A stretch of DNA of 64,000 bases from Candidatus Nanoarchaeia archaeon. Its GTDB lineage: Archaea > Nanobdellota > Nanobdellia > Woesearchaeales > SKIA01. The notes under the pieces were generated by a model. The model worked only from the letters and a program-made list of their open reading frames with translations. It searched no databases and was not told the DNA's origin. The position numbers were made by a program, and so were the translations under genes. The stretch's first letter is position 1, and each line of letters opens with the position of its first letter. Location of the stretch: NCBI GenBank assembly GCA_028279685.1, contig JANQNG010000016.1:56999-120998 (forward strand), given 5' to 3'. Shown here piece by piece: positions 7,596-37,353 of the stretch.

Positions 7596-7642
7596 AATAA
7601 TTGCGGATCAATCCGTGATTTCTCCTGTTTTTTTGCAGCAAG
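7595..7642. repeat. ~48-bp repeat with hairpin and T-tract, copy A (terminator-like)
   Basis: aaataattgcggatcaatccgtgatttctcctgtttttttgcagcaag; near-identical to 7946-7994. Confidence 0.85.
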
Positions 7643-7677
7643 GCTTATTAAAACTTCTAAATTTGTAAAGAAAAAGT

Positions 7678-7726
7678 GGACGCCTAATTGGCGAGCACCT
7701 GACTCAAAAACAGTCCCTTCCCAAGG
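7678..7726 (+). pseudogene. tRNA-like remnant upstream of the class-II tRNA
   Basis: GGACGCCTAATTGGCG...CTCAAAAACAGTCCCTTCCCAAGG aligns with GGACGCCTAG...GGCG...CTCAAAAACAACTCCCTCCCCAAGG of the tRNA at 7775. Confidence 0.6.
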
Positions 7727-7774
7727 TATTAACTGAAAGATTTTCGAAATATATAAATTTTATGAATATGCGAA

Positions 7775-7891
7775 GCCGCGGACGCCTAGCTTGGTTTGGC
7801 GGTTGTCTCAAAAACAACTCCCTCCCCAAGGGGTTGTGGGTTCAAAGAGGTTTCAATACCTATTGAACTTGTGGAACTCCCACCCGCGGCG
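7775..7891 (+). tRNA. class-II (Ser-like) tRNA, anticodon loop CTCAAAA (CAA), predicted 31-nt T-loop intron 7847-7877
   Basis: GCCGCGG/CCGCGGC acceptor, GCC/GGC D-stem, GTTGT/ACAAC anticodon stem, long variable arm, GTGGG/CCCAC T-stem; removing 7847-7877 restores TTCAAAT. G73. Confidence 0.7.
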
Positions 7892-7945
7892 CATATTTTC
7901 AGATATCAAAAATAACTTAGAATTACTTGAAAAATACATACGCCA

Positions 7946-7994
7946 AAATAATCACAGATCAATCCGTGATTTCTCCTGTTTTTTTTGCAGCAAG
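7946..7994. repeat. ~48-bp repeat with hairpin and T-tract, copy B
   Basis: aaataatcacagatcaatccgtgatttctcctgttttttttgcagcaag; see copy A. Confidence 0.85.
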
Positions 7995-8078
7995 TTTTTT
8001 TAATGATTAGAAAAATAGAAGAATATGCGTTTGACAAAGGCCAATAACTATATAAAAAGAAGTTTCCTTTCTTTCCCT

Positions 8079-14037: not shown

Positions 14038-14111
14038 TGGACGCTGCGGGATTCGCACCCGCGGCCTCTTCGTTGCGAACGAAGCACTCTACTAGACTGA
14101 GCTAAGCGCCC
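14038..14111 (-). tRNA. tRNA-Ala (CGC)
   Basis: Reverse strand GGGCGCTTAGCTCAGTCTAGTAGAGTGCTTCGTTCGCAACGAAGAGGCCGCGGGTGCGAATCCCGCAGCGTCCA; loop TTCGCAA. Confidence 0.92.
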
Positions 14112-32838: not shown

Positions 32839-33078
32839 TTATGATGTTTTCTCTTTAAGGAAATCTCTTATAAGATCTTCTATAACCCCGCTCATATTAA
32901 TGTTGTTCTCTTTGCAATATGCCCTGAATTCCATCATTAATTGCTCATCTAAAGTAAAATTTACTCTTTCTTTGTAATTAGCTTTTCTCATCTGTCCTGT
33001 TCTATCTAATTCTTCCAAAAGATTAAGATACGCTTCTTTTTCCCTAACCATGTCCTTAATTCGTGATTCACTTAACAT
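32839..33078 (-). CDS. ribbon-helix-helix antitoxin-like protein
   Basis: ERVNFTLDEQLMMEFRAYCKENNINMSGVIEDLIRDFLKE. Confidence 0.75.
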   Translation of the reverse strand: MLSESRIKDMVREKEAYLNLLEELDRTGQMRKANYKERVNFTLDEQLMMEFRAYCKENNINMSGVIEDLIRDFLKEKTS

Positions 33079-33407
33079 TTTAACAGCAACCTCCCTACCT
33101 TATTTATATCAACTATACTTTTCTTTGCAATAAGTAGTATATTCTCTACAAGCTTCTGATCATCATATTTTTTTTCATTATCTTGAAAATATAATGTTCC
33201 CAACACATAAGCAGTTCTTTTGTTTCCATCTTCAAAAACATGATCAACTACAATGCTTCTTACTAAGTAGCTCAGCTCATAGAGCCAACTCTTTTTCTTT
33301 TTGAGCATGCCTAAAGCAAAAGTTATGCTAGATTCATTTCTAACTAAGCCTTGCTCTCCAATCTCTTGATTGATCCTAATCAAATCCTTTAAATTATACA
33401 CACTCAT
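33072..33407 (-). CDS. Fic/Doc family protein
   Basis: HVFEDGNKRTAYVLGTLYF matches HxFxDGNKRT. Confidence 0.82.
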   Translation of the reverse strand: MSVYNLKDLIRINQEIGEQGLVRNESSITFALGMLKKKKSWLYELSYLVRSIVVDHVFEDGNKRTAYVLGTLYFQDNEKKYDDQKLVENILLIAKKSIVDINKVGRLLLKC

Positions 33408-35043: not shown

Positions 35044-35898
35044 ATGAGTTTTTTTATCAACCGCTACAAAGAATGGAACCCTGACTTCAAGGAAGAATAT
35101 TCGCCTATGAATGTTTTACGTGTAAACACACTACGAACCAAAGAAGAAGAAATTATCAAAAGACTGCAGAAAAATGGTGTAAAACTCAAAAAAATCCCTT
35201 GGCTCAAGTATGGATATTCCTACGAAGCAGATTTCTCATTAGGATCAACCCCTGAATATTTACTAGGTTATTATTATCTGCAAGATGCCGCTTCGCAATT
35301 CGCCGTTCAAGTATTAGCTCCTCAATCTGATGAAGTAATTCTTGATGCTTGTGCTGCTCCTGGCAGTAAAACAACCATGATAGCTCAGATGATGAACAAC
35401 GAAGGAATTATTATTGCTGCTGACAATAATGTGAAGCGTCTGCAAAGTCTTATGAACAATACAGAACGTTGCAGCTGCAAAAACATTGTTGCAGTAAACA
35501 AAGACGCATTATTCATTGATGAAATAAACAAACAATTCGATCGAATTTTATTGGATGTTCCTTGTTCAGGAAATTATTGCATCGAAGAAGAATGGTTTAC
35601 GAAAAGACAGATAGCCGATATTAAACAAAAAGCAGAAATGCAAAAGAAACTACTAAAAGCGGTTACTAAAGTTTTAAAATCAGGAGGAACATTAGTATAT
35701 TCGACCTGTTCTTTAGAGAAAGAAGAGAATGAAGAAGTAATTGAGTGGGCTCTAGATAACTTGCCTTTGACATTACAACCCATAGAAGCAGACATCGGCT
35801 CTTCTGGACTGACAGAGAAAACGAAATTATGCAAACGCTTCTGGCCTTACAAAACGAATACGCAAGGATTTTTTGTTGCGAAGTTAGAGAAAAAGTAA
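35044..35898 (+). CDS. NSUN/RsmB-type RNA cytosine-C5 methyltransferase
   Basis: LDACAAPGSKTTMIAQMM, RILLDVPCSG, GGTLVYSTCSLEKEENEEVI. Confidence 0.93.
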   Translation: MSFFINRYKEWNPDFKEEYSPMNVLRVNTLRTKEEEIIKRLQKNGVKLKKIPWLKYGYSYEADFSLGSTPEYLLGYYYLQDAASQFAVQVLAPQSDEVILDACAAPGSKTTMIAQMMNNEGIIIAADNNVKRLQSLMNNTERCSCKNIVAVNKDALFIDEINKQFDRILLDVPCSGNYCIEEEWFTKRQIADIKQKAEMQKKLLKAVTKVLKSGGTLVYSTCSLEKEENEEVIEWALDNLPLTLQPIEADIGSSGLTEKTKLCKRFWPYKTNTQGFFVAKLEKK

Positions 35899-36273
35899 AC
35901 TATCCTCAGGGTTCTCTATTTCCTGAACTCTTTCATAACCTACTTTAGCAAGCCATAGCTTGAAAGGTTCTGCTTTTTTAGATGGAATTGATTGAATTAT
36001 CCTAAATGCTCCTTCTGTATTGGCACAGTCCGTAAGCCTTAATTTGCCATCTTCAGCCACCATTTTCAACTGTCCGATATTATCGGACATTTCAAATCCT
36101 TCCTCATTCAACTTTGCCTTTAGATCTGACCAGTATTTTCGAGGTCTTGAGCTGGAATTTAATGCTTCCACAATGTCAATAATTGAAAACCACCACTCAT
36201 CTTTATACCAAGTCTTACGGATAGCATTTCCTTCAAAAACAGCCAATGCTTTATTTTGATTAGTTTCGCTCAT
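35884..36273 (-). CDS. Bro-N domain antirepressor-like protein
   Basis: IRKTWYKDEWWFSIIDIVEALNSSSRPRKYWSDLKAKLNEEG...EPFKLWLAKVGYERVQEIENP. Confidence 0.88.
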   Translation of the reverse strand: MSETNQNKALAVFEGNAIRKTWYKDEWWFSIIDIVEALNSSSRPRKYWSDLKAKLNEEGFEMSDNIGQLKMVAEDGKLRLTDCANTEGAFRIIQSIPSKKAEPFKLWLAKVGYERVQEIENPEDSLLFL

Positions 36274-37063: not shown

Positions 37064-37150
37064 AAATCTTTCGATTAGTATCGTGATTATCGCGGTTTTT
37101 TCTAAGAAACTTATATTAAGAATTCTGAATTTGAATGAAAAAAGAAAAAA

Positions 37151-37185
37151 GGACGCCCAATCTGGTTTGGCTCCTCCACCCGAAG
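37151..37185 (+). pseudogene. tRNA-like remnant upstream of second class-II tRNA
   Basis: GGACGCCCAATCTGGTTTGGCTCCTCCACCCGAAG aligns with GGACACCTAGTCTGGTTTGGTGCTCCC...ACCCGAAG of the tRNA at 37233, lacking the anticodon loop. Confidence 0.6.
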
Positions 37186-37232
37186 TATAATCTGAAAGGT
37201 TTTCGGATTATTTAAATTTTTTGGTATGCAAA

Positions 37233-37353
37233 GCCGAGGACACCTAGTCTGGTTTGGTGCTCCCCTGATGAGGGAGTTCTTCACCCGAAGAGTTGTGGGT
37301 TCGAATCAGCGAAAGTTGACTCAACTTTGTGGGCGAAAATCCCACCCTCGGCG
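37233..37353 (+). tRNA. class-II (Ser-like) tRNA, anticodon loop CTGATGA (GAT), predicted 34-nt T-loop intron 37306-37339
   Basis: GCCGAGG/CCTCGGC, ACC/GGT, CTCCC/GGGAG, variable arm CTTC-ACCC-GAAG, GTGGG/CCCAC; removing 37306-37339 restores TTCGAAT. Bulge-helix-bulge-like TTCG(AAT)/CGAA(AAT). G73. Confidence 0.72.

Follow-up and report, generated by a model that had tools for sequence, protein, structure and literature searches.

The window, a stretch of 64,000 nucleotides from contig JANQNG010000016.1 of a Candidatus Nanoarchaeia archaeon (order Woesearchaeales), carries on its forward strand a serine-type class-II tRNA gene, F4, with an isoleucine anticodon (Table 1). Its layout is GCCGAGG-AC-ACCT...-CTCCC-CTGATGA-GGGAG-variable arm-GTGGG-TTCGAA(34 nt)TCCCAC-CCTCGGC-G, with A8 in place of U8 at position 8. 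On re-reading, the coordinates, strand, anticodon arm, variable arm (CTTC-ACCC-GAAG) and G73 given in an earlier sequence-only reading are all as described there, and its proposal that the gene is a class-II tRNA of the Ser type whose anticodon, for Ile, does not match is supported. The traits of tRNA-Ile are absent: F4 is class II and not class I, with G73 and not A73, and G37 and not A37. That reading did not include the 34-nt intron, A8, a truncated copy of the gene at 37151–37187 or the predicted cognate antisense RNA gene. Genes of the F4 kind are designated F below, and their truncated copies T; T(-) denotes the minus strand of T.

Table 1. Features of the two T-F modules in the window
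Feature	Position	Strand	Remarks
F4, Ser-type class-II tRNA gene	37233–37353	+	Acceptor to G73; 3' CCA not encoded
F4 anticodon GAT	37267–37269	+	Loop CTGATGA 37265–37271; stem 37260–37264 / 37272–37276; stem covaries among paralogues
F4 T-loop intron, 34 nt, between positions 59 and 60	37306–37339	+	BHB helix TTCG:CGAA
T4(-), predicted cognate antisense RNA gene of F4	37138–37187	-	Start ~37187; oligo-U end 37150–37138
TATA box of T4(-)	37209–37216	-	20–24 nt from the T border in 23 modules
Putative F4 promoter region	37082–37119	+	Palindrome-like CGTGATTATCGCG, TATA-like TTATATTAA
F3, sibling of F4	7775–7891	+	CAA at 7809–7811, loop CTCAAAA; T-loop intron 7847–7877; G73
T3(-), predicted antisense RNA gene of F3	7667–7728	-	With oligo-U end
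TATA box of T3(-)	7750–7757	-	

Because its T loop is split, F4 is missed by ARAGORN and by Rfam, both at the gathering threshold and in a permissive scan of the locus (E ≤ 1); the sole tRNA that these programs see in the window is tRNA-Ala at 14038. The family covariance model, built partly from F4 itself, scores it at 89.5 bits. A Fic/Doc-like protein (33072–33407, minus strand) and a BRO-N-like protein (35884–36273, minus strand), both candidates recognised by eye, are encoded near the module.

A search with the split-T-arm pattern yielded four F genes, and a covariance model made from those four yielded eight in the genome. F4 has the anticodon GAU and the other seven have CAA, in an anticodon loop that is constant among them (CTCARA; CTCAAAA or CTCAAGA). 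Across the eight copies, 99.3% of stem cells are paired; the anticodon stem is fully paired in every copy, with compensatory two-sided changes at all five of its pairs. The stem covariation score of these copies is 0.524, against 0.184 after shuffling (none of 500 shuffles reaches the observed value) and 0.066–0.164 when the 3' partners are slid out of register. Given this pairing and covariation, the gene type of F4 and F3 is not a product of chance. The module at 7775 is flanked on both sides (7612–7665 and 7945–7995) by a direct repeat of 45–50 bp (ATCAATCCGTGATTTCTCCTGTTTTTTT-GCAGCAAG), which is the presumed F promoter region present twice and perhaps the scar of a lost second module.

With two covariance models, 26 F genes were found in 14 genomes belonging to 11 families of the order Woesearchaeales; a T-based model revealed T-F modules in other families, the fetching of long F-model matches added more, and the 26 genes were annotated by script. 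A pseudogene or an assembly artefact is extremely improbable as an explanation of F4: the assembly is of metagenome type and standard tools miss the gene, but the compensatory changes in the anticodon stem and the recurrence in 14 genomes speak against both. The anticodons of the 26 genes are CAA (11), GAA (8), GAU (4), CAG (1), GAG (1) and CAC (1). None is a serine anticodon; all have A35, with G or C at position 34, so that only hydrophobic NUN codons would be read. The F model was trained on members with A35, while the T-based search (R2) had no such requirement; normal Ser tRNAs carrying other anticodons turned up as well. G73 is present in 25 of the 26 genes, as is a long variable arm, the gene in genome G296 being class I; U33 occurs in all and a purine at position 37 in most. 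A8 replaces U8 in 11 of the 26 and may weaken translation activity. In a tree built from these short sequences, the F genes are grouped apart from normal Ser tRNAs in at most 4 changes.

Several claims of the sequence-only reading can be judged against this family. The gene at 7775, suspected there of being a sibling, is the paralogue F3, with the loop CTCAAAA given there and the anticodon CAA. The loop CTGATGA, identical to that of F4, is also present in genome G122. Archaeal occurrence of a mismatched class-II tRNA, for which it knew of no established case, is real, and the recurrence of the same gene kind contradicts a sequencing slip or a decaying copy. Its C35-to-A change from tRNA-Ser(GCU) stands as a possible origin of F4; it is not the whole story, because a normal Ser(GCU) is kept, seven siblings have CAA and the family rule is A35 with G34 or C34.

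Strict A8 or GCY patterns exclude relatives with T8 and GCA, and with them the family wrongly looks unique to the window genome. Five pattern matches in GTDB were unrelated or a normal Leu(CAA), and BLAST against phages and plasmids gave no relevant match. The class-I tRNA of G296 (L243), which has no long variable arm but has the anticodon CAC and G73, lies in a T-F module, where the anticodon arm is the part that T pairs with. A frequently doubled motif similar to CACTGGACA is found just 5' of the plus-strand TATA box in modules L195, L196, L210, L238, L239 and L243, which belong to genomes G060, G038, G012, G281 and G296; it is a possible operator common to the modules.

The T-loop intron of F4 splits TTCGAA from TCCCAC. 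The exon sequence TTCG at positions 54–57 pairs with intron CGAA, followed by the bulge AA^T60; in F genes generally, positions 54–57 pair with the four intron bases just before the last bulge, and the predicted cut at 59/60 regenerates the consensus T loop TTCRAAT. In the window genome, exon TTCG goes with intron CGAA or CGAT and TTCA with TGGA, and this covariation between position 57 and the intron end (TTCG/C-type, TTCA/T-type) is kept in nearly all relatives. The BHB helix has 3–4 pairs in seven of the eight F genes of the genome and only 2 in F7; F7 (C79b) fits the motif poorly and may contain two introns. As in archaeal non-canonical BHB introns, a 4-bp helix lies between two bulges, here located at 59/60. 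All 26 F members have the 59/60 intron, which is absent from most of the normal tRNA-Ser genes seen. Since the normal tRNA-Leu(TAG) and tRNA-Ser(GGA) of the same genome carry an intron of the same kind at 59/60, it is a maturation feature and not a defect. Ordinary tRNA genes are also heavily interrupted (L143 at C36:41.9k, L147 at C78:38.2k, L148 on C57, L149, and L157 on C72), with up to three introns per gene in the D loop, anticodon stem, anticodon loop and T loop, and many ordinary tRNAs escape standard finders for this reason.

The truncated self-copy T is found near 25 of the 26 F genes; module G055b has no good cognate T. At all eight loci of the window genome, T contains the D and variable arms of its F, sometimes also the anticodon arm, and never the T arm or the 3' acceptor; the order is an A-rich tract, then T, then a TATA box. 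The truncated copy T4 lies upstream of F4, and the complementarity of T4(-) is to the D and variable arms of this gene. With a model based on sequence only, ten T copies are found in this genome, all within the eight loci. The distance from the minus-strand TATA box to the T border, where similarity between T and F ends, is 20–24 nt (sd 1.2) in 23 modules, against 14–85 nt (sd 13.6) from the same box to F. Where an ordinary tRNA gene of this genome has a clear TATA box, it stands at about -29 to -36, and read on the minus strand the box of the modules lies that far from the T border. A main role of this box as the F promoter is rejected because of its varying distance to F. In several genomes a CGAAAG-type BRE lies 5' of the minus-strand box, and the A-rich tract, which on the minus strand is an oligo-U stretch, stands at the T(-) end in all modules except G055b. 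Because the TATA spacing is fixed to T and an oligo-U end is present, T is most simply read as a minus-strand antisense RNA gene.

For F itself, we infer that the promoter is the conserved upstream TATA-like region. The putative F4 promoter region is conserved at the other loci, and where T is missing upstream, as at the C35 locus, it immediately precedes the tRNA.

Other roles of T were considered. Protein coding is rejected: open frames exist in places and are broken elsewhere, and conservation tracks the tRNA and TATA nucleotides. A box C/D guide RNA is rejected too, the C box RTGATGA being absent from all 26 T(-). Orphan T elements also occur (at C79, among them T5 and T7a, and at L244 in G010); their best match is an F elsewhere, or they have no intact F.

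T could also be a relic of tandem tRNA duplication, kept F-like by gene conversion, with F alone being of importance. T is indeed a truncated same-strand copy, and the extra orphan copies T5 and T7a would suit such an origin, but the truncation borders are identical throughout and never include the T arm or 3' acceptor, the spacing of T to the TATA box stays constant despite a diverging linker sequence, and the minus-strand oligo-U end and conservation in 11 families also tell against a relic, which is thus very unlikely. Common descent and gene conversion could produce the cognate similarity of T and F, T being sense-like to F; these alone would not explain why the minus-strand promoter stands at a fixed spacing or why T is truncated so consistently.

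The complementarity is specific to partners. When T is defined, in all but a few modules, by a fixed window measured from the TATA box, the best partner of T(-) is its own F in 24 of 26 cases, and the total duplex energy is -1592.7 kcal/mol, against -876.4 kcal/mol for shuffled partners (sd 42.3, minimum -1098.4; 20000 shuffles), i.e. 17 sd below them. Of the 40320 assignments within the window genome, the cognate one ranks first. The D, anticodon and variable arms are each covered at about 60%, the T arm at 1% and the 3' acceptor at 0%. In a control set of ordinary tRNA-Ser genes, the runs shared between gene and upstream DNA are shorter (mean 7.3 vs 11.8); the few with runs of 13–17 nt seemingly have, as judged by eye, a different upstream element like the tRNA 5' end. 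In several genomes a hairpin element, TCGCATAC...stem-loop...GGTCGCGA, which resembles the tRNA-Ser 5' end, lies upstream of a normal tRNA-Ser (L150, L091, L098, L218, L234).

The genome keeps normal tRNA-Ser genes with TGA, CGA, GGA and GCT, together with a true tRNA-Leu(CAA) at C36:41.9k and a true tRNA-Ile(GAU) on contig C24, a set assembled from searches and, for several genes, from introns read by hand; F is therefore dispensable for decoding. The CAA and GAU anticodons of F might suggest that it translates UUG or AUC in this organism, through sense-codon reassignment or as a needed decoder. Such a role is highly improbable, as normal tRNAs for both codons exist and UUG, whose frequency in the window is 16 per 1000 codons, has its usual meaning in CDC48, the single gene tested: compared with solved homologues, its UUG codons align with Leu 9 times, Ile 5, Thr 1, Tyr 1 and Ser 0. 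Reassignment of UUG is rejected on this alignment.

There is an even prospect, judging from these sequences, that F is a serine-inserting mistranslating tRNA restrained by its cognate antisense RNA in an RNA-only, toxin-antitoxin-like module. The first RNA, F, would be an extra Ser-type tRNA, built as a 7/5 cloverleaf with a long variable arm and G73, matured by removal of the T-loop BHB intron and charged with serine by SerRS. SerRS reads the variable arm and G73 and not the anticodon (PMC7609411), so F should carry serine; in E. coli, allo-tRNAs of the Ser type that bear a Leu anticodon deliver Ser to Leu codons (PMC7609411). Active F would insert serine where the codon specifies Leu, Ile, Phe or Val and thereby be toxic. 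The second RNA, T, would be 30–55 nt long, transcribed from the opposite strand with its own TATA box and an oligo-U end, with complementarity to its own F in the D, anticodon and/or variable arms. It should block F folding, serylation (the variable arm being the SerRS handle) or decoding, and the pair may act as an RNA-only toxin-antitoxin or as a switchable mistranslation device. That every member is limited to A35 is expected if damage is the point. The presence of several modules in one genome, every one with a partner of its own, the patchy distribution and the orphan T resemble toxin-antitoxin modules, whose function here may be addiction, defence or stress mistranslation. Sequence comparison gives good support to the existence of the gene family, to its cloverleaf, intron motif and A35 rule, and to the promoter geometry of T and its cognate complementarity; that T is transcribed and neutralises F, and that F is spliced, serylated and toxic, is what we infer.

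Two further readings share much of this anatomy. Regulated adaptive mistranslation, in which F is deliberately used under some condition to insert serine at hydrophobic codons and T(-) is an ordinary antisense regulator and not an antitoxin, has the same anatomy; the repeated, conserved upstream promoter motifs suggest regulation, and Candida is a known case of statistical mistranslation (cited in PMC4300185). However, up to 8 modules per genome with their own cognate RNAs and a patchy presence recall addiction modules rather than one regulon, and this use is somewhat unlikely. Alternatively, F may be a non-translating tRNA-like decoy, sponge or regulator acting on SerRS or a tRNA-cleaving toxin, with its level set by T(-). 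A8 in 11 of the 26 F genes would agree with this, certain genes resembling allo-tRNAs do not function in translation (PMC7609411), and nev-tRNAs mature without detectable mistranslation (PMC4300185). The well-formed anticodon stem and loop, with U33 and mostly a purine at 37, the T loop that splicing would restore and the family-wide A35, which points to codon reading, make it unlikely.

The mistranslating module proposed here may be compared with known systems. Like F, allo-tRNAs have G73, a long variable arm, an expected Ser identity and non-serine anticodons, and some have been speculatively tied to toxin-antitoxin or transposable elements; they are bacterial, have 8/4 or 9/3 acceptor domains and carry anticodons for 35 of 64 codons (PMC7609411). 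F, in contrast, is archaeal, always canonical 7/5 and limited to A35, with a T-loop intron and a predicted cognate antisense RNA gene. The nev-tRNAs, with which the sequence-only reading compared F4, combine a class-II body with a class-I anticodon and are mischarged in vitro; as described in the accessible text of PMC4300185 and PMC4033280, they are eukaryotic (nematode) and Leu-charged, have Gly(CCC) or Ile(UAU) anticodons and, unlike F, have no antisense partner reported. The predicted cognate antisense RNA gene sets F apart from them. F genes are not from nematodes. Members with GAU and GAA fit the nev-like class-II/class-I mismatch; 11 of the 26 F have the Leu anticodon CAA. The traits of tRNA-Leu are absent from F, which has G73 instead of A73 and non-Leu variable loops; G73 and the missing Leu-type TTAGTG variable loop argue against Leu charging.

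As in the proposed T-F pair, both partners of the type VIII system CreTA are RNA, action on translation is tRNA-based, the genes are adjacent and the hosts include archaea; the CreT mini-ORF sequesters a rare tRNA, unlike F, where the tRNA is the presumed toxin, and CreA, a guide of the CRISPR type whose repeats are degenerate, works with type I CRISPR-Cas to repress transcription of creT (PMC8501985). T differs from CreA in being complementary to a tRNA body, and no obvious repeat handles are seen in T by eye. In type I toxin-antitoxin systems, as proposed for the T-F pair, an overlapping antisense RNA lies opposite the leader of the regulated gene. The regulated product of the T-F pair would be a tRNA and not a small-protein mRNA.

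As far as open-access PMC papers go, no archaeal family of class-II tRNAs whose anticodons are mismatched would precede this one. That it forms an RNA-only toxin-antitoxin class of DPANN-type archaea, with an NUN-reading serine tRNA as the toxin and a cognate antisense RNA masking the tRNA body as the antitoxin, has a little less than an even chance. The predictions for the T-F module are concrete and cheap: serine at UUG, UUC and AUC codons, and an antisense RNA of 30–55 nt. If true, it would be a natural, recurrent system with the genetic code as its weapon, in which serine is sent to core-hydrophobic codons and its delivery is controlled by a dedicated antisense RNA.
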